Assembly (NCBI GenBank): GCA_003157595.1
Contig: PMKB01000015.1
Span: 1-15,320, forward strand
Source of the DNA: Solirubrobacterales bacterium
GTDB lineage: Bacteria; Actinomycetota; Thermoleophilia; Solirubrobacterales; Solirubrobacteraceae
DNA: 15,320 bases
Direction of reading: 5' to 3'
Under the pieces are notes generated by a model. That model did not search any database. It saw nothing but the letters and a program-made list of their open reading frames with translations, and was not told the DNA's origin. Made by a program: the position numbers and the translations under genes. Positions 2,566 to 15,320 of this stretch are shown one piece after another; within the stretch, counting starts at the first letter, position 1, and the number at the start of each line of letters is the position of its first letter.

Positions 2566-3681
2566 TCATGGCGATCCGCGATGAGCGCCTGCCGGCTGTG
2601 CGGAGACCTGGTCCGCGGCCACAAGGGCGTGATGGTCGAGGGTTGCGAATACTTCGACGACGGCCGGGTCGAAGTGTCGGCTGCTCTGGCCCAAGATTTC
2701 AGCGGCGGCTTCGTCAACTGGCCACGGCTGCTTGTAGGGTCGGCGATGGACCAGTGCGTCGAATACGTCAGCCACCGCGACCAGGCGACCAGCCAAGGGG
2801 ATCGCATCTCCTGCCAGTCCGCTGGGGTAACCGCCCCCGTCCCAGCGCTCGTGGTGTGTAAGCGCGATCTCCGCGGCGGTGCGCAGTAGCTGGGAGCGGC
2901 TGTCGCCCAGGATTCGTGCTCCGATCAACGTGTGAGACTTGATGATCTCGAACTCTTCCGCGGTGAGTTTTCCCGGTTTGAGAAGGATGGAGTCGGGGAT
3001 CGCGATCTTGCCGATGTCGTGCAGCGGAGCCGCGAGGCGAATGCGCTCGACCGTGCCACTCGGTAGTCCCTGGCCAGCGGCCAGCAGCGCTGCGGCGTGG
3101 CCGATCCGCTGTGCGTGCTGGTGGGTGTCGTCGTCGCGGTACTCGGCGGCCAACGCGAGACGATGGACGAGCTCGAGGCGAGCCAGCTCGAGCTGATGGG
3201 TGCGTTCACGTACTCGGGTTTCGAGATCGTCACCGTGGGCTTTCAGCTGGACCTGAAGCAGCCTCATCTCCAGCAGGTTCGAAACGCGCAGCCTGACCTC
3301 CTCAGGATCAAACGGCTTCGTGAGGAAGTCGCGCGCGCCGAGCCTCAAGGCCTGGTGCTTGGTCTCGTCAGTGGCATCGGCGGTGAGCACCAGAACCGGG
3401 ACTTGCGTGCTGCCGTGGGTCCAGCGGTCGAGCAGGCGCATCACGTCAAAGCCGTTGAGTACCGGCATGTTGATGTCGAGCATGAGGAGGTCGGGGACGA
3501 GATCTTCGAACGCATCCACAACTCTGGTGGGGTCTGTGATGGCGACGACGCTGGTGAAGTGCCAGCGCTTCAGCAATCCCGTAAGCAGGGCTGTGTTGGC
3601 CTGCTCGTCATCCACGACGACGATCCGCATGCCACGTAGAGCGCTCTGCGTGGGATCCGGGGTGTCAAGTTCGTGGTTCAC
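2566..3681 (-). CDS. Response regulator with HD-GYP (c-di-GMP phosphodiesterase-type) output
   Basis: This 371-residue protein starts at a GTG that overlaps the kinase stop (GTGA), so the two are probably translationally coupled. The N-terminal receiver domain (about 18-140) has the acidic pair D24/D25, phospho-acceptor D69 (LMLDINMP), T100 and K122 (LTKPFD). A short coiled linker (about 140-170) follows. The HD-GYP domain (about 172-350) is complete: HDIGK at 221-225, H250, HH at 276-277, the GYP motif in DGGGYPSG (281-288), and D305. HD-GYP proteins hydrolyse cyclic di-GMP; the full metal-ligand set suggests activity. The kinase encoded just upstream is the likely phosphodonor. No GGDEF cyclase gene is present in the window. 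Confidence 0.93.
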
Positions 3682-6179
3682 TTGGGCACCAGAGCGCCGG
3701 CTGGGATAACCGCGTCAAGCGCGGCGAGGAAGCTGGGAACGTCCAGTGGGTGTGTCAGGAAGAAGGAGGCGCCGAGTTCGAGCAGTCGCGGTCCTTGGTC
3801 GGCGCCGAGGTCGGCGGTGAGGATGATCACCGGTATCCGTTCGGTACGCGCGTCTTGCTTGAGAGCGTCCAGGACCTGCTCGCCAGTCATGTCGGGCAGG
3901 TGCACGTCGAGCACGATGACGTCGGGCGGATGGTGGCGCGCCAGCTCAATGCCGAGCCGTCCCTGCATGGTCGCTTCGACCGTGATTTCCGGTCTGCGCT
4001 CGAGTACATGCTCGATCAACTTGATGTTGACCACGTTGTCCTCCATATACAGGACCCGAACTGAGGGGGCGCCGTCAAGCTGATCGCTCGCGGGGCTCTC
4101 GAGCGTGCGCTTGACGGCGTCCGACGCCTCCGTCGCCTCGGCGAGCTCGATCTCCGCTGTGAACGTAGACCCGATCCCGGGCTCACTCTCGACGGTGAGT
4201 GTTCCCCCCATCAGCTCCATCAGATGCTTGGAGAGAGCCAGGCCAAGCCCTGACCCTTCAATATCCTCATGCTCTGCGACGATCCTTTCGAAGGGCGCAA
4301 AGACCTCCGAGAGCCGCCCGGCTGGGATGCCGAGGCCCGTGTCGCGAACACGGATCCGCAGTTTCGGGCCGGCCTGCTCGCAGACGATCCCCACTTCGCC
4401 CCCTTCGCGGTTGTACTTGATTGCGTTTGAGAGCAGATTCAGCAGCACCTGCTTCACGCGCTGGCGGTCGGCGCGGATGTAACACCCGAGCTCACCCGAA
4501 GCAATCTCAACATGGATGTTTCGCTCAGCTGCCATCGGAGAGACCACCGCGACCACGTCCGCCAGCAGCGCCTCCACGGCGACCGGCTCGGGGAAGATCG
4601 TCACCTTACCCGCCTCGATGCGCGCAATGTCGAGCACCTCGTTGATCAACTCCAGCAGGTGCCGTCCCGATTCGACGATGTAATGGACCGGCTCGAGTTG
4701 GTCCTCGGACAAGCCATCCATCTCCAGTAGATGACCAAAGCCGAGAATCGAGTTCAGGGGAGTGCGCAGTTCGTGGCTCATTCGCGAGAGGAACTCGCTC
4801 TTGGCGCGGTTGGCCCGCTCAGCCTGCTCCTTCGCATCGCGGAGCAGCTCGTCGCCGCGCTTTCGGTCCGTGATGTCTTCAGAGATAGCAAGCAGATACT
4901 GAGCCTTGCCGTGCTCGTCGACAACGGGGATCTTCGTGGTGTGGAGGTAGCGCACCCCGTCGTTCCGCGTTTGGACCGCCTCCTCGGCAATTTCGAGCGG
5001 CACGCCGCTCGCGAGTGTCGCTCGATCCTCGGCCGTCGACGACTCTGCCAGGTCTGCCGCGAAGACGTCGTGGGCGTTCTTCCCGAGCAGCTCTTCTCTG
5101 GAGTAGCCGAGCAGCTTCTCCCCCGCCCGGTTGAAGCGAACGAACTTCAGATCACGCGCGTCCCTGACCAGCAGCATGTTGGGGATGTGCTCCACCACGG
5201 AGTCGAGGAACACCTCGGAGCGTCGAAACTCGGCGGCCTGATCCTCCAGGCGGCCGTGACCGTCCTGCAGCGCGTCGGCCATCGCGTTGAACGAGCTTGC
5301 CAGACGCGATAACTCCGTTGCTGACGCAGGCTCGACACGGACCGAGAGATCTCCCGCTGCCAAATCGTCCGCAGCGTTCCCGACCTTCCGGATCGGCCGC
5401 AAGACCGCGCGCCGCAGATAGAGCGCCGAAGCCGCGAGCAAGACGAGCGCACCAACCAACCCCCCCAACTCGTAGGCCGACGCCCGGCTGGCGGCCGCCT
5501 GGGCCTGTAGCTCGGCAGGGGCAGCCGGCTGCTGGTTGCGCTTGATCAGCTCGGCGAATATGAGCCGCAGCGCGTCCACGCGCCGCTTGCCTCGCAGAGC
5601 TGCAGCTACGTTCACGGCGCCCGTGGGGTTCCTCTGGACCGTGAGGATCTGAGGGACCGCGAAATCGCGGATGTAAGACTCGCCTTCGCTCGCGATCCTC
5701 CTCGCCAGCCCCAAGTCGACGCTTCCATTCTGGGCTTCGAGAGCCACCAACGTCGAGCTACGCGCGGGAAACGCCGTGCGCGCTGACTGCCAAGGCTCGA
5801 GGAAGCGGCGGTCGTGCGTGAGCAGGAACCCGCGCACACCGGTCTCCAGATCCAACAGCAGCGTCTCCGACTGGTAGGCGAGCGAAACCTCCTGCTCAGC
5901 CCTCGCCTGCACTCGGACGTTCCGACTCAGCGTGGAGGTGGCGTCGCGCTGCGCAAAGAACACCGCAAGCAGTAGGACCGCGAGGGCAACACCAGGCAGC
6001 AGCAGCCGCACAGCCACCGAGTCCGCCGACCGCGGTCGGGATCGCCCGACACCTGCGCCGGCGCGCTTGAAAGGGTTCGGCCACAAGCTCCAACCGCGCG
6101 CACGCACGTAACCCCTATCGACCGCAAGCGAAGATTCCATAACTTTGCCGACACGCAAACGCCGCAATGCCATGATCAC
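3678..6179 (-). CDS. Membrane hybrid sensor histidine kinase (CHASE3-HAMP-PAS-HisKA-HATPase-receiver)
   Basis: This 833-residue protein has two membrane segments (about 55-77 and 236-256) flanking a CHASE3-like sensor ([19 protein letters not shown], 112-130). A HAMP linker (about 257-310) and a PAS domain (about 322-440, ending ISEDITDRK) come next. HisKA has H469 in SHELRTPLN. The ATPase domain has the N box [10 protein letters not shown] and the G boxes DTGLGIP and [11 protein letters not shown]. The C-terminal receiver has E713/D714 and acceptor D758, but the usually invariant Lys is replaced by His810 (LTHPLD). It is the first gene of a leftward operon with the HD-GYP regulator. The start is GTG at 6179; ATG at 6173 is possible and neither has a good ribosome binding site. 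The receiver could act as an internal phosphate sink or relay. Confidence 0.93.
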
Positions 6180-6405: not shown

Positions 6406-6954
6406 ATGGTCACGGGCGGCCCGAGCAACCAGCCTGACGAGCCGGCACCGGATCAGCAGACTGGCGCGGGCGCGCACGACCGTCGCGGGTTCCTCAAGCG
6501 GATGGCGGCAATCGGTTTCGCCGCACCCGTCGTCACGGTGTTGGATCCCTTCACCACCGCTTCTGCGCTGGCGTGCGCGACGACGACGGTCGTGAGCACA
6601 ACCCAGCCCGCGACCTCCTCGCCTCCGTTCACGACCCAGCCGCCGCTCACGACGCCGGTTCCCTCGACGACGTCGGCATCGACCACGCCCGCACCGTCGA
6701 CTACGAAGACCCCCGCCACCACGACGACGACGCCTGCGCCGACCACCTCACCGGCGGCCACCACACCACCGCCCGCGACGTCGCCCGCGGCGACGACACC
6801 ACCCCCGTCGACGACACCACCTCCGTCGACGACAGCGGTCCCGTCGACGACACCACCTCCGTCGACGACAGCGGTCCCGTCGACGACGGCGAAGCCGAGG
6901 CACCATCACCACCATCACGATCACCGTCGTGACCACCGCCGCGGCGGCACCTGA
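6406..6954 (+). CDS. Tat-exported Thr/Pro-rich mucin-like protein with natural hexahistidine tail
   Basis: The protein has 182 residues. Residues 1-25 are polar; a twin-arginine signal RRGFLKRM (26-33) precedes a hydrophobic stretch ending ASALA at 56. Cys57, the only cysteine, follows directly, so a non-canonical lipoprotein site is conceivable. Residues 58-161 are low-complexity Thr/Pro/Ser/Ala with about 39 Thr and blocks such as PPPSTT and AVPSTT. The tail holds six consecutive His (166-171) and then HDHRRDHRRGG. There is no enzymatic domain. The composition resembles heavily O-glycosylated wall linkers or mucin-type stalks, and the His/Arg end could bind metal or an anionic polymer. It is convergent with the multidomain glycosyltransferase gene 136 bases away, a possible modifying enzyme. 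Function is inferred; the Tat signal and composition are directly visible. Confidence 0.8.
   Translation: MVTGGPSNQPDEPAPDQQTGAGAHDRRGFLKRMAAIGFAAPVVTVLDPFTTASALACATTTVVSTTQPATSSPPFTTQPPLTTPVPSTTSASTTPAPSTTKTPATTTTTPAPTTSPAATTPPPATSPAATTPPPSTTPPPSTTAVPSTTPPPSTTAVPSTTAKPRHHHHHHDHRRDHRRGGT
6805..6888 (+). repeat. 36-bp tandem repeat inside the Thr/Pro-rich coding region
   Basis: Bases 6805-6840 and 6841-6876 are identical 36-bp units encoding PSTTPPPSTTAV, and the start of a third unit follows from 6877. The repeat keeps the reading frame, so copy-number change by slippage would lengthen or shorten the protein in 12-residue steps. Confidence 0.9.
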
Positions 6955-7077
6955 GCGCAGCCGTTCGCTCGCGTCGTGGGACCGCGGAGACTGACCGGTC
7001 GCGCTCCCGGCCCGAAGCGGAAGCGCCCACATAGACCGGCCGTGACATCAACAAGCGCGCTCGCTGGCCGCTGTCGG

Positions 7078-7100
7078 GCCGGCAGCTAGCTCAGGCCGGC
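7078..7100. terminator. Possible short hairpin between the convergent Tat-protein and glycosyltransferase genes
   Basis: GCCGGC (7078-7083) and GCCGGC (7095-7100) can pair around an 11-base loop and straddle the glycosyltransferase stop codon. The stem is short and lacks a T-tract, so the terminator role is weakly supported. Confidence 0.25.
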
Positions 7101-9601
7101 GCGTCTGCCGCAGCGACCGCGGCCGGCGCCAGCAGGAGCCCCACACGCCGAAGCCGCTCCACGCACTCCGACACCTCGGCCAACGGGTCGCCGGGCAGGT
7201 CGAACAGCTCGGCGACGGTGTGCGCGACCTCGACGACCGATCGGCTGCCGTCGGACAGTTCGAGCACAATCGCCGCGGTGTTGTTGAGCTGGTGCTCGCG
7301 CGTCGAATTGGGGCGGCGGACGCGAAGCCCCTGATCGACCTCAGACATCTCCAGCGCGCCGACGGCCCGCGGACGGTCTGTCTCGGGTTCCACCCGCCGA
7401 ACGCGCAGTGCCGACAGCGAACCGTCGGCGAGCGCTCGCAGAAGGTAGCCCTCGAGCCCACCGTGCCGCGCCAGGAAGGCCGACTGGTCGGCCTCGTCGA
7501 TCGGGATCTCAGCGAGGATCCGTGCGTAGGCGCGGCGGTGCACGGCGGCGGTCATCGGGCCGTGAGGTTCGGCTGCGCGTGCCTCGCCAGGCTGCTCGAG
7601 CCGGCTGGGCGACGCGAGAATGAAGACGTCCCATTCACTCGCGAGCTCGGCGGGTGCGATCGTGATCGCAACCGCGTCGGGGCCGCCCGGATCCTCGGTC
7701 ACGAGCACGTGCTCATACCCACGCCGCGAAGCCTCGCTCAGCGCCTCGCGCCAGCAAGCCAGCCGCCGCCGCGCGAGCCCGGCATCCTGCTGCGGGTCCA
7801 GATGTTCGATGCGCCACGCCAGCTCGGCCGGATGAGTGTGCTCGCCGGCGTTCTCAGCGACGCAGAGCACCGCGTCGAAGACGCTCAGCGGGTGCTCGAT
7901 TTGCATCCGCGCCTGCTCGAAGAGTCCTGCAGCCGCGTCCGCCAAGAGCTCCCGGAAGTGCTCCTCCATCGGTGCGGGATCCCAGCCGATCTCCGACCAG
8001 CCGAGGTAGTAGTTGCGGATCCGGTCTTCCCAGCTGTTCGTGTATCCGACGCCGCGCGGCCGGCCGAAGCGGTGTACCCATCCCAGCCCGGGGTGGCAGA
8101 TCGTGCGCCCGCCGCGCTGGCGGAACTTCTCTTGAAGGTATCCCTCCTCGCCGCCGAAGCCCCGCATCCGCGGGTTCAGCCCCGGCCACGCGTCGCGGCG
8201 GCAGGCGAACACGCCGAGACCCTGCATCGCGATCTCGAACGGCTTGCAGCCAGGGTCTTCGATGCGCGGATCTACGCTCCACTGCCCGAACATGCCCTCG
8301 CCCCACGTCGGCTCGAGGTGAGTCGCCGCGAAGCTTCCGAGGTCGTCGTGGAGCAGCGGGCCCTGCAGCAGGTCACGGCTGTCGGGGTGCTCGACGAACC
8401 ACGCGCGCAGCGCCGCAAGCGCCCCGGGCGCCAGCAGCACGTGCGAGTCGACGCAGCAGACGATCTCTGCGTCGGCCTCACGGAACACCAGGTCGCGCAC
8501 GGCGGTGCCGTTGTAGCCGCTGAACGGCACGTAGCGGTAGTCGGCGATCCAGCTTCCGAGCTCCCGGAGTGGCTTCGCGGCGATGCCGTCCGGATGGTTG
8601 TCGATCACGAGCAGCGAAAGGTCGGCCAGGACTTCGGTCTGGTACATGCGGATCGCCTGCACGGTGAACCACACGCCGTCGAAGTCGTCGTAGGTGGACA
8701 TGCCGACGCACAGACGCGGCGCTGCGCCCGGTTCTGCGCGATCAACCGCCTCGTGCTGTGGTGTGTCACGGGGGCCGGCGGCCCCACGACCGCGGGCCGG
8801 GCGAAACGCCCGCGCAGCCGCCGCGGCATCCGGTATCACGCCGATCTGGGTCCCTACCGCCAGGGCCTTCGGATCTGCCTCGAGCACGCCGACGGCCCAC
8901 CGACGCTGCCCATCGCTGTAGAGCGACGGATGCTTGAGCACGATACGAGCCCTGATCTCCTGGTCCTCGTCGAGGAGCCGCGAATACAAGCCCTCATGCA
9001 CGCGGTAGTGCCACAGCGCCCCCGCAGCCCTGACGCCGAGCCAGCCGTGCGCGATGCAGCCGATCCAGAAATCCCAGTCGGCGTGTCCGATCTCCGTGTC
9101 GTAGCCCCCAACCTGCTCCCATGCCACGCGGCGAAACAGTGAGGCGCTGCCAACAAGGTTGACGGTGAGCTCCTGTCGTGTATCCCACTCCCGAAGCTGC
9201 TGGACGGCGCCGTCATCATCGAAGCCGAGGATGTCTCCATAGGCGATCGCAGCCAACGGGTGTAGGTCGAGCGCCGCTACACACGTCTGCAGAAAACGGG
9301 CTTCGAGGCGATCATCCGCGTCGAGGCATAGCACGTACTCAGCGCCCGTCGCCTCGACACCGACGTTGCGACTCGCTCCGGCCGAGCCGCCGTGTGGCGT
9401 GGATATGAGGCGAATCGAGATCTCCGCGTGGGCGGCGATAAGCCGCTGTGCTACGTCGCGAGAGTCATCGGTGCTGCCGTCGTCGACGATGATTATCTCG
9501 TCCGGGCGAAGCGTTTGTGCGATGACGCTTTCGACCGCCGCGGCCAGGTAGCGGCCGTAGTTGAAACAGGGTATGACGACCGCGGCACCCATCGCGCTCA
9601 C
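7091..9601 (-). CDS. Multidomain glycosyltransferase (GT2 + DxH-type GT + GT25-like segment) with C-terminal PqqD-like domain
   Basis: The protein has 836 residues and no signal or membrane segment, so it is cytoplasmic. Domain 1 (about 5-230) is classical GT2: VVIPCFNYGRYL, VDDGS at 39-43 and the metal motif DAD at 94-96. A Pro/Ala-rich linker follows. Domain 2 (about 295-545) has VIDN in place of DDGS, D385-S-H387, GFGGEEGYLQEKFRQRGG (481-498) and H510 in WVHRFGRP. The DxH plus late His arrangement resembles polypeptide GalNAc/GlcNAc transferases. Residues 570-725 weakly resemble GT25 (GYEHVLVTEDPG near 628, EWDVFIL near 656). Residues about 750-826 look PqqD-like (LNNTAAIVLELSDGSRSVVE, then RLRRVGLLL), a fold that binds peptides in RiPP pathways. 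The start is GTG 9601 or ATG 9592; no clear ribosome binding site decides. Substrate inference: a peptide or protein, perhaps the neighbouring Thr/Pro-rich one. Confidence 0.85.
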   Translation of the reverse strand: MSAMGAAVVIPCFNYGRYLAAAVESVIAQTLRPDEIIIVDDGSTDDSRDVAQRLIAAHAEISIRLISTPHGGSAGASRNVGVEATGAEYVLCLDADDRLEARFLQTCVAALDLHPLAAIAYGDILGFDDDGAVQQLREWDTRQELTVNLVGSASLFRRVAWEQVGGYDTEIGHADWDFWIGCIAHGWLGVRAAGALWHYRVHEGLYSRLLDEDQEIRARIVLKHPSLYSDGQRRWAVGVLEADPKALAVGTQIGVIPDAAAAARAFRPARGRGAAGPRDTPQHEAVDRAEPGAAPRLCVGMSTYDDFDGVWFTVQAIRMYQTEVLADLSLLVIDNHPDGIAAKPLRELGSWIADYRYVPFSGYNGTAVRDLVFREADAEIVCCVDSHVLLAPGALAALRAWFVEHPDSRDLLQGPLLHDDLGSFAATHLEPTWGEGMFGQWSVDPRIEDPGCKPFEIAMQGLGVFACRRDAWPGLNPRMRGFGGEEGYLQEKFRQRGGRTICHPGLGWVHRFGRPRGVGYTNSWEDRIRNYYLGWSEIGWDPAPMEEHFRELLADAAAGLFEQARMQIEHPLSVFDAVLCVAENAGEHTHPAELAWRIEHLDPQQDAGLARRRLACWREALSEASRRGYEHVLVTEDPGGPDAVAITIAPAELASEWDVFILASPSRLEQPGEARAAEPHGPMTAAVHRRAYARILAEIPIDEADQSAFLARHGGLEGYLLRALADGSLSALRVRRVEPETDRPRAVGALEMSEVDQGLRVRRPNSTREHQLNNTAAIVLELSDGSRSVVEVAHTVAELFDLPGDPLAEVSECVERLRRVGLLLAPAAVAAADAPA

Positions 9602-10664: not shown

Positions 10665-10694
10665 TTGACAATGCTGTGCGACGGCCCCTAAGCT
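10665..10694 (+). promoter_or_regulatory. Promoter of the small-subunit/GMC oxidoreductase operon
   Basis: A perfect -35 box, TTGACA (10665-10670), is followed after 18 bases by TAAGCT (10689-10694), a TANNNT -10 box. Initiation near 10701 would leave a short leader containing GAGGGA (10705-10710) and the TTG start at 10718. Confidence 0.65.
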
Positions 10695-10717
10695 CGCGAC
10701 GACTGAGGGAGACTGGC

Positions 10718-11113
10718 TTGACTCACGACTACACTCGGCTTCGAACGCTCGATGCTGGACAGGCGGACAAGCTCGAGCGTCTGTGCGAGCTGATCGTCCC
10801 CGGCTCGGCGCGCATCGGCTCCGTTGTCTACGTAGACGCGCAACTCGCGCAGATGCCGCAGGCGCAGCGCGACGCGGTGATCGCGTCGATCGAGAGTATC
10901 GGCGAGGCCGCACGGGGCGGCGTGGACGCGCTCGCCGCTCAAGCGGCAACACCGGCGTTCCTCCAACTGCGCGCGCTCGCGATCGAGGCCTACTACAGCG
11001 ACTTCGTGGCGCCGGGCGTGAACGGGCCGGGAGCGTGGGATGAGATCGACTTTCACCCGCCGGCGGCGGCTCTGCTCCGCAAGGACTGGTCATACATGGG
11101 TATCCAGGCATGA
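10718..11113 (+). CDS. Gluconate 2-dehydrogenase subunit 3-like small subunit
   Basis: The 131-residue product starts at TTG 10718, with GAGGGA 7 bases before it. An in-frame GTG at 10676 would give 14 extra residues but lies between the -35 and -10 boxes of the apparent promoter, so it is unlikely. The protein matches the gluconate-dehydrogenase subunit 3 family: an N-terminal helix with KLERLCELIVPGS, and the C-terminal signature YYSDFVAPGVNGPGAWDEID then RKDWSYMGI. Known members partner FAD-dependent GMC dehydrogenases, often as Tat hitchhiker subunits that carry the catalytic subunit across the membrane. No hydrophobic signal is visible here. Its last codons overlap the GMC start (ATGA), so a 1:1 complex is likely. 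Confidence 0.85.
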   Translation: MTHDYTRLRTLDAGQADKLERLCELIVPGSARIGSVVYVDAQLAQMPQAQRDAVIASIESIGEAARGGVDALAAQAATPAFLQLRALAIEAYYSDFVAPGVNGPGAWDEIDFHPPAAALLRKDWSYMGIQA

Positions 11114-12588
11114 ACGAACGCTTCGACGTTGTCGTCGTCGGCTCGGGAGCGGGCGGCGGCGTGGTCGCCGGAGAGTTGGCACAGCGTGGCCGGTCCGTGC
11201 TGCTCCTGGAGCTCGGCCCCTACCGGACGGCCGTCGACTTCGCCCGCTGGGAGGCCAAGGCGACCCACGAGTTGTGGTGGCCGATCCGCTTCGCGATGCC
11301 AGTCGGAGAGTGGGGTCCGGGCGCGGTCGCGCTCGTGGCCGGTCGCTGCGTCGGCGGATCGACGACGATCAACACGAAGGTTGCGATGCGCGCCGACGCA
11401 GCGGACCTCGAGAAATGGCACGCGGCGAGTGGACTGGTGAACGAGCACGGCGAGCCGTTCGGCGTCGCCGACATGGCGCCCTTCTACGAGCGCGTGGAGC
11501 GCTACCTCGGCGTCCGCACCCGCGACGACTGGTCTGACAGCGTGCGCACCGTCGAGCGCGGCTTCAACGCGCTCGACGCGCGGCTGGACGCAGTGGAGTC
11601 CTATACCGACGAGAACTGCATGCGCCTCGGGTCCTGCCTCCAGGGCTGCCCCACCAACGCCGGCAAGTCGACCCAGAACACCTACATTCAGGAGGCGTGG
11701 GTGCGTGGCTCACTCGACGTGCGTCCAGATTCCCGCGTCGAGCGTGTGCTGATCGAGGATCGCGGCGACGGCGTCGAGGCGACGGGCGTCGAGTACGTCG
11801 ATGAGGCCGGCAGGCGCCACAGCGTGGCGGCGGGCGCGGTGGTCGTGGCCGCCGGCACGCTGAACACTCCGGGTCTGCTGGTGCGCTCGGGATTGGATGA
11901 TCCGCTGATCGGACGCAACGTCGGCTTTCACCCGGCGCGCCTGGTGTTCGGCCGCTACGACGAGCCCCAGGACGCCCACGTCGTGTATCCGATCACCTCG
12001 CACTGCGCCGACTTCCGCCACGACGTGGATGGGGGCTTCGTGGTGGAGGCGGTCACGATGCAGGACCCGATTAGCTTCGCGATCAACCTCCAGGACGAGC
12101 AGGGGCCGATGTGGGGTAAGGCGCTCGTCGAAGCGCTGCGGCGCTTTCGCCACTGGACGGGGCTGCTCGTCATGGTCAACGACGACAACAACGGCGCGGT
12201 CGTCGCTGACCCCGATCCGGGCGCAGCCGCCGATGCCTTCACGTGCGATTTCCAGCCGCCCGAGCTGGCGCGCCTCGATCGTGCGCTCACATTCGGTCGA
12301 GCAGTGCACGACGCCGCCGGCGCCCGCGAGATCCTCTGGACCGGCCTGCTCACGACGCATATGCAGGGAAGCTGCCGGATGGGCAGCGACCCGGCACGCT
12401 CGGTCGTCGACGCACACGGTGAGACGCACAGCGTCAAACGACTGTTCGTCGGTGATGGCTCGGTGGTACCAAGAACGCTCTCCGCCAACCCGTCGCTGAC
12501 CATCATGGCTCTCGCCACCCGCCTCGCCGACCATCTGCACGCGGACCGCAACGGCTACCTCTCAGACCTCCAGGCCGCCGTCGGATGA
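11110..12588 (+). CDS. GMC-family FAD oxidoreductase with predicted 3Fe-4S cysteine motif
   Basis: The 492-residue length is typical. The FAD Rossmann motif is VVVVGSGAGGGVVAGELA (7-24). The GMC signature GRCVGGSTTINTKV covers 78-91. Cysteines 170, 176 and 180 form C-x5-C-x3-C, the spacing of the 3Fe-4S ligands in Burkholderia-type FAD glucose dehydrogenase. AAGTLNTPGLLVRSG lies at 247-261. The C-terminal catalytic pair would be H417 (THMQGSCRMG) and N460 (SANPSL). It is expressed from the promoter at 10665-10694 and translationally coupled to the subunit-3-like gene. The Fe-S motif and small subunit suggest a dehydrogenase passing electrons to a carrier rather than an oxidase. The substrate (sugar, alcohol or sterol) cannot be read from sequence. 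No signal peptide is seen. Confidence 0.92.
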   Translation: MNERFDVVVVGSGAGGGVVAGELAQRGRSVLLLELGPYRTAVDFARWEAKATHELWWPIRFAMPVGEWGPGAVALVAGRCVGGSTTINTKVAMRADAADLEKWHAASGLVNEHGEPFGVADMAPFYERVERYLGVRTRDDWSDSVRTVERGFNALDARLDAVESYTDENCMRLGSCLQGCPTNAGKSTQNTYIQEAWVRGSLDVRPDSRVERVLIEDRGDGVEATGVEYVDEAGRRHSVAAGAVVVAAGTLNTPGLLVRSGLDDPLIGRNVGFHPARLVFGRYDEPQDAHVVYPITSHCADFRHDVDGGFVVEAVTMQDPISFAINLQDEQGPMWGKALVEALRRFRHWTGLLVMVNDDNNGAVVADPDPGAAADAFTCDFQPPELARLDRALTFGRAVHDAAGAREILWTGLLTTHMQGSCRMGSDPARSVVDAHGETHSVKRLFVGDGSVVPRTLSANPSLTIMALATRLADHLHADRNGYLSDLQAAVG

Positions 12589-14721: not shown

Positions 14722-15320
14722 TCATGACGGCCGGCTCGGAAATCCGCGGCGTCGGGCAAACTCGACGAAGGCGTCGAGCGCGTGCGGGTCGGCGAGCGCG
14801 TCGCGATTTGCAACCTCCGACGCCGGCGCGCCGAGCAGGATCCGCTTGACCGGCAGTTCGAGCTTCTTCGCGGTCAGCGTGCGGGGGATCGCGGGCACGG
14901 CCTCGAGCGTGTCAGGGACATGCCGGGGGGACAGCGCCGCCCGCAGCGCCGCAGCCACCCGGGCGCGCAACTCATCGTCGAGGACCACGCCCTCCGCCGG
15001 AACGATGAACAGGATCAGCTCACCCGGACCGCCCTCACTATCCTCCAGGTGCACGACGAGACTATCGACGATCTCGTCGAACCCCTCGATCACCGGGTAG
15101 AACTCGCCGGTGCCCAGTCTTACGCCGCCGCGGTTGAGCGTCGCGTCCGATCGACCGCTGATCATGCAGCTGCCGCGCTCGGTGAACGTGATCCAGTCGC
15201 CGAAACGCCAGACGCCGGGGAAGTCCTCGAAGTAGGCCGCGCGGTAGCGCGCATCGCCCGGGTCGTTCCAGAAGCGCACCGGCATCGACGGCATCGGCGC
15301 GCGGATCACCAGCTCGCCCA
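14722..15320 (-). CDS. Acetoacetyl-CoA synthetase, C-terminal part (5' end outside window)
   Basis: The frame is open to the right edge, so about 199 C-terminal residues of a protein usually near 650 are present. The hallmark segments are clear: AAYFEDFPGVWRFGDWI, SGRSDATLNRGGVRLGTGEF, VDSLVVHLED, and LSPRHVPDTLEAVPAIPRTL followed by TAKKLELPVKRIL. The last contains the catalytic Lys loop of the ANL adenylating superfamily; most relatives read TGKKLE. The enzyme activates acetoacetate, or a related 3-keto acid, to its CoA thioester with ATP in the cytoplasm. It would be the first of three leftward genes. Its placement with an esterase and a reductase suggests ketone-body or lipid-derived acid use, which is an inference. 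Confidence 0.92.
   Translation of the reverse strand, partial: GELVIRAPMPSMPVRFWNDPGDARYRAAYFEDFPGVWRFGDWITFTERGSCMISGRSDATLNRGGVRLGTGEFYPVIEGFDEIVDSLVVHLEDSEGGPGELILFIVPAEGVVLDDELRARVAAALRAALSPRHVPDTLEAVPAIPRTLTAKKLELPVKRILLGAPASEVANRDALADPHALDAFVEFARRRGFPSRPS

Follow-up and report, generated by a model that had tools for sequence, protein, structure and literature searches.

Two convergent genes in the window

The window, by which we mean the whole 15,320-nucleotide stretch of DNA that was analysed (Solirubrobacterales bacterium, assembly GCA_003157595.1, contig PMKB01000015.1), carries a gene for a twin-arginine translocation (Tat)-type protein with a mucin-like region and, converging on it across a gap of 136 bp, a gene for a multidomain glycosyltransferase (GT) that ends in a PqqD-like domain. 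We examine the two here as a putative protein O-glycosylation module. An earlier note, made from the sequence alone, had described this convergent pair and its spacing, and the coordinates bear it out (Table 1).

By translation, the leader of the mucin-like protein reads DRRGFLKRM, followed by a hydrophobic stretch and by ASALA preceding Cys57, a candidate AxA-type cleavage site. The Tat-type assignment is based on the RRxFLK twin-arginine motif with a mild hydrophobic stretch behind it. Residues 57-164 are Thr/Pro-rich: of these 108 aa, 39 are Thr, 29 are Pro and 14 are Ser, which confirms the mucin-like region of about 39 Thr in the earlier note. The His-rich tail that follows is absent from the three Frankia partner proteins described below, and metal binding is a possible role for it.

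Table 1. Features of the two convergent genes, in positions of the window
Feature	Coordinates	Strand	Remarks
Tat-type mucin-like protein, proposed substrate	6406..6954	+	182 aa; from translation
Leader: twin-arginine motif RRGFLK, hydrophobic stretch, ASALA before Cys57	6406..6573	+	
RRxFLK codons of the leader	6481-6498	+	
FAAPVV, candidate docking motif [F/Y]xxPx[V/I/L] for a RiPP recognition element (RRE)	6517..6534	+	F and P invariant across 5 aligned leaders
Mucin-like Thr/Pro/Ser-rich region	6574..6897	+	108 aa with 39 Thr
His-rich C-terminal tail (RHHHHHHDHRRDHRRGGT)	6898..6951	+	from translation
Multidomain GT with C-terminal PqqD/RRE domain, proposed modifying enzyme	7091..9601	-	836 aa
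N-terminal GT2 domain, residues 7-240	8882..9583	-	best solved match chondroitin synthase
GT-A domain, residues 291-575	7877..8731	-	predicted fold like polypeptide GalNAc-transferases
DSH (DxH) motif, residues 385-387	8441..8449	-	
FGGEEGY (482-488) to H510	8072..8158	-	GGE-to-His spacing 25, identical to GALNT1
Middle domain, residues 576-740	7382..7876	-	perhaps degenerate GT25-like (weak)
PqqD/RRE-like domain, residues 745-825	7127..7369	-	

Domains of the glycosyltransferase

Pfam finds Glycos_transf_2 in the GT at E 7.9e-31, and two GT-A-type domains can be told apart, the second of which (residues 291-575) is the one relevant to protein glycosylation. The earlier note had correctly read a multidomain enzyme with GT2 and PqqD parts but had not singled out this second domain. 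Its closest predicted-fold match, over about 255 residues, is to the polypeptide N-acetylgalactosamine (GalNAc)-transferases, and because of this likeness the link between the GT and the Tat-type protein appears to be more than proximity. A search for homologs gave 1593. Of the 120 homologs listed, 119 carry the motif D[SACT]H, which also occurs in 140 of 142 GTs from viral contigs (see below), and the GGE-25-His spacing in 114 of the 115 motif-bearing bacterial proteins and in all 142 viral-contig GTs; DxH and the spaced His presumably serve as metal ligands.

With the polypeptide GalNAc-transferases of family GT27 the enzyme shares the predicted GT-A fold, DxH, the GGE-25-His spacing and a Thr/Pro-rich partner. 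It differs in having FGGEE in place of WGGEN and a PqqD/RRE domain, with no lectin domain (no Pfam match at E 0.1) and no evident membrane segment, whereas GT27 enzymes carry a C-terminal ricin-type lectin domain. Since sequence homology and WGGEN were both looked for and neither was found, we do not file it under GT27; on present evidence it may work like a GT27 enzyme.

Among 28 aligned proteins the N-terminal GT2 domain is present only in the window GT and P0009-P0011, while in P0028 (and in P0013 by alignment) a GT2 domain lies C-terminal of PqqD, and such extension domains may be swapped among relatives. The middle domain is perhaps a degenerate GT25-like one, a weak assignment in which PF01755 is precomputed on P0108 but falls below the cut-off on P0106 (E 0.027). 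The collagen galactosyltransferase COLGALT1, made up of a GT2-like and a GT25 domain, resembles the window GT in its two tandem GT domains and appears among its Foldseek matches; the overall superposition is nevertheless poor (TM 0.29, rmsd 23) and the GT25-like part of the window GT is degenerate at best. The highest 19-residue Kyte-Doolittle mean is 1.84, at residue 380 inside the second GT-A domain, and the cytoplasmic location suggested by the earlier note therefore seems reasonable.

That note had also called the C-terminal domain PqqD-like, and on this Pfam, profile matches and the predicted fold agree. PqqD was found at residues 770-823 with 22.9, 23.4 and 27.3 bits in three Pfam searches (cut-off 23.4), and a 64-sequence family profile matches the solved RREs of TfuB1 (6jx3, E 4.2e-4) and PqqD (5sxy, E 5.2e-4). 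In the predicted model, residues 751-819 form three strands and then three helices (pLDDT of the block 88-97), a winged-helix call read from the secondary structure of the model.

Recurrence of the gene pair in Frankia

The pairing is seen again in a second lineage. A scan of genome contigs with a single-sequence query picked out a single locus, from Frankia sp. AgB1.9. When the window leader (first 61 residues) was compared with the 9.8-Mb Frankia genome, 18 matches were obtained, and the top one (E 0.0014) was on the contig of the GT-PqqD gene and directly downstream of it, which argues that the pairing in the window is more than chance. The Frankia partner is a protein of 169 aa with GRRSFLKQM and a Thr/Pro tail, encoded on the same strand 49 bp past the GT stop. 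The GT-PqqD gene is present in 3 of 35 Frankia-family genomes, and in all three loci a Tat-type Thr/Pro-rich gene lies directly downstream (the third with RRAFIK), the tails of the partner proteins holding 40-45% Thr. By blastn, the third locus aligns with the other two over about 2.0-2.2 kb only, that is, the GT plus the Tat gene; these genes therefore stay together amid changing surroundings. Apart from the GT, window genes gave only weak matches (27-33%) in the Frankia loci, all from two signalling genes. The recurrence check that the earlier note had set beforehand came out in favour of the pair outside close kin, and the functional link, which it had offered as inference, gains support from this recurrence and from the GalNAc-transferase-like predicted fold.

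The GT-PqqD gene was found in 3 of 393 genomes of the Frankia class sample (the same three Frankia) and in 1 of 296 of the phylum sample (the query genome itself), the order search having covered the same 35 genomes as the family search. A plasmid search gave one 39% match of PqqD length, in Embleya. We rejected a general rule that PqqD genes sit beside Tat proteins, since this held for 2 of 32 PqqD loci, both in the window's own genome, the 32 being a subset of the PqqD matches listed; among GT2 control loci a strict Tat motif occurred in 0 of 29. An 850-aa frame with a weak PqqD match in another genome (G004) was likewise set aside as outside the GT-PqqD family, its end being ThiF-like by eye.

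Relatives in viral contigs

The GT-A domain also occurs alone, in contigs of IMG/VR. A bacterial profile gave 431 confirmed relatives there (42-56% identity in the best 80) and a viral profile at least 477, of which the best 80 were used; 71 of these came under new locus identifiers, many on contigs already in the bacterial-profile set. The GT was the sole criterion in choosing loci, genes were called by a simple longest-frame rule, and the GT frame was located in 142 of the 151 loci examined, the other 9 being dropped. Taking as Thr-rich any protein with at least 12 Thr in 40 residues, we found the same-strand gene immediately upstream of the GT to be Thr-rich in 17 of 30 clusters at 70% identity, against a background of 10 of 380 other genes of those loci; at 90% clustering the figures were 37 of 58 and 21 of 801. 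The bacterial-profile set alone gave 52 of 80 loci and 10 of 17 clusters (background 7/201), and in control viral GT2 loci, which were few (n = 11), 2 of 229 genes were Thr-rich. These viral-contig GTs, of about 265-335 aa, lack the PqqD/RRE domain and pair with Thr-rich proteins.

An open reading frame (ORF) ending in C[NK]xLx[FY] finishes by the GT start in 35 of the 58 cluster representatives, and 32 of these 35 have at least 12 Thr in 40, as do nine of ten further such ORFs in those loci (the tenth has 10); one tagged Thr-rich example upstream of a viral GT is L077:7474-7968. The counts were drawn from 4037 ORFs of the viral loci, and among 1028 ORFs of the control loci the ending occurred in none. 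This tag may mark clients of the GT, or only common descent.

In the gene order of contig L057, genes for a head-tail adaptor, the major head protein and the tail are seen. Directly upstream of its GT, between the head and tail genes, lies a virion protein of the Bbp16 family (7458-7916) that ends in a short Thr tail; the locus was counted as not Thr-rich. The virion surface may thus be glycosylated. Glycosylated mycobacteriophage virions have reportedly been described, in work that did not come up in our literature search. PHROG matches were obtained for 4 of 10 neighbour proteins from five viral loci (three strong, all in L057, and one weak, in L077), and the viral nature of the remaining loci is IMG/VR's own classing. 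Queries with the window GT domain or with a GT from a viral contig matched none of 50,697 cultured-phage records, and in PHROGs three GT queries, like two of the Thr-rich proteins, were without a family.

This association bears on two other explanations. The GT could make a surface polysaccharide or a lipid-linked glycan, with the Thr/Pro-rich Tat protein a wall-spanning stalk that is its neighbour by chance: polysaccharides are common substrates of GT2 enzymes, the N-terminal domain of this GT is similar to chondroitin synthase, and the window pair is convergent. We regard this as unlikely, given the RRE domain, the predicted fold, the viral-contig association and a two-gene unit that is the only segment aligning between two Frankia loci, and because no polysaccharide gene was found in the other 10 window ORFs scanned (ORF 14722-15309 lay outside the scan). 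Less likely still, the GT-PqqD protein could be an RRE-guided modifier of another, unannotated peptide of the RiPP (ribosomally synthesised and post-translationally modified peptide) kind, as may be thought from the RRE-glycosyltransferase fusions that two papers list as putative RiPP enzymes (PMC7470986, PMC12710340); the Frankia neighbour is, however, a Thr/Pro protein, and the RRE-less viral-contig relatives likewise pair with Thr-rich proteins.

A candidate docking motif in the leaders

Five leaders were aligned: those of the window protein and the three Frankia partners, and a fifth from a Tat protein encoded close to a PqqD gene on another contig (C317) of the window's own genome. RR, F, M, F and P are invariant among them, giving FxxPx[VI] within the hydrophobic stretch. 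In 505 kb of bacterial loci [FYW]xxPx[VIL] was found in 5 of 51 RRx[FL][LIVM][KRQ] peptides, which are exactly these five leaders, and shuffling four of the five gave 0.018-0.036 each. As a docking motif for the RRE, FxxPx[VI] is suggestive only, because chance frames account for many of the other 46 RRx[FL] peptides and the choice of motif followed inspection of the alignment. The RRxFLK DNA pattern itself has a single match in the window's genome, at the window gene, a single match in G797, at the Frankia partner, and none in G828; a reversed control matched 0, 2 and 3 times in the same genomes, so the count is no better than chance and only the location of the matches deserves notice.

Lasso-peptide RREs recognise [Y/W]xxPx[L/V/I/F/A] (PMC13381572), and hydrophobic substitutions such as YxxP to LxxP are reported (PMC12710340). 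The window GT resembles the lasso B1 proteins TfuB1/FusB1, with their YxxPx[L/V/I] leaders, in its PqqD-fold domain, its profile match to TfuB1 and the FxxPx[VI] of its presumed client. Unlike RRE-guided RiPP enzymes, it is a GalNAc-transferase-like GT whose putative substrate is a Tat-type mucin-like protein of 169-182 aa and not a short precursor; in a Pfam scan of 11 window ORFs, none matched a protease family.

Docking is the one step on which another account differs: the RRE may have another docking site, such as the Thr/Pro tail, or be vestigial, with the GT still glycosylating the Thr/Pro protein. This account, which we consider doubtful, fits with viral-contig GTs that lack the domain and with some listed homologs that have no precomputed PqqD. 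It accords less well with the FxxPx[VI] common to the leaders and with PqqD-domain residues that do not vary in a 20-member alignment, such as N and A in LNNTA, and CD.

On C317 a group-1 glycosyltransferase gene is followed by a PqqD gene (38% identical to the window PqqD), a kinase-like gene (by eye, presumably HprK-like), a Tat protein and a GT2 gene, the last four at L056:12149-14791. The Tat protein, P0126, has a FATPVV leader and is not Thr-rich; the row is possibly a second RRE-Tat-GT module in this genome.

A putative protein O-glycosylation module

We conclude, with a probability of about 0.7, that the GT and the Tat-type mucin-like gene of the window form a dedicated protein O-glycosylation module. 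The analysis shows the pairing of the genes in a second lineage, the predicted fold, the geometry of the motifs and the occurrence of this GT domain next to Thr-rich proteins in viral contigs; we infer catalysis on Thr, the sugar donor, binding of the leader by the RRE, the order of events and Tat export. The PqqD/RRE domain of the GT would bind the Tat-type leader, with FxxPx[VI] as the probable site; still in the cytoplasm, the GalNAc-transferase-like domain would next place sugars on many Thr of the Thr/Pro region; the additional GT2 domain at the N-terminus, as found in the window genome, may extend the glycan; and Tat would then export the glycosylated protein.

Several observations count against the module. 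The two window genes converge, a pair of the three Frankia loci share 90-95% identity along their whole length and so are not independent, and the Frankia leaders show no clear AxA site where the window leader has ASALA. The window Tat gene is unmatched in the Frankia loci (tblastn with masking), BLASTP gives no alignment between the window and Frankia Tat proteins, and leader searches in a large protein collection returned zero matches. In the window's family a strict Tat motif lies within about 1.5 kb in only 2 of 32 PqqD loci, and in samples of the family (146 genomes), the class (399) and the phylum (396), with at most 10, 3 and 3 candidates scored per genome, GT-PqqD was found only in the window's own genome (E 1e-30). 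Because of this absence from sampled kin, the window may have gained its copy by transfer, or the contig may have been assigned to the wrong genome. At the sequence level the GT family has no match to GalNAc-transferases (hhalign probability 6.5 and 0.1), and 13 of the 30 viral clusters lack a Thr-rich upstream gene at the threshold. As to docking, the window motif has F where the published one has Y or W, and the loose form [FYWL]xxPx[VILFA] is common (10/51, shuffle values 0.043-0.157).

More broadly, prokaryotes and their phages may have their own kind of mucin-type O-glycosylation, by a GalNAc-transferase-fold family acting on Thr-rich proteins, guided in bacteria by an RRE reading the Tat leader and in phages perhaps by the C-terminal C[NK]xLx[FY] tag on virion proteins, and with a possible kinship to the ancestor of the animal GalNAc-transferases; this we put forward tentatively, at a shade under even chances. 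If the proposed module is right, a prokaryotic and viral-contig enzyme family performs mucin-like O-glycosylation, and RiPP-style leader docking serves cytoplasmic protein glycosylation ahead of Tat export. From the viral-contig findings, uncultivated phages may have virions coated with sugar, and leader-addressed glycosylation of Thr at many sites would be a useful tool. The candidate docking motif is testable.

The fusions of PMC7470986 and PMC12710340, which combine a GT2 Pfam domain with an RRE as the window GT does, may include members of the GT-PqqD family; the accessible portions name no mucin-like Tat partner or GalNAc-transferase-like domain and list the fusions without a substrate, for which we propose the Tat-type mucin-like protein. 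Among the papers listed by searches of the open-licence literature, none pairs RRE-GT fusions with mucin-like Tat proteins or treats the viral-contig GT family, an absence that is weak evidence because only open-licence papers were covered.

Other genes of the window

Adjoining the Tat gene, a hybrid histidine kinase (CHASE3, HAMP, PAS, receiver) is followed by an HD-domain response regulator (2566-6179). On the other side of the pair, a gluconate-2-dehydrogenase-subunit-3-like protein and a GMC oxidoreductase are encoded in tandem (10676-12588).

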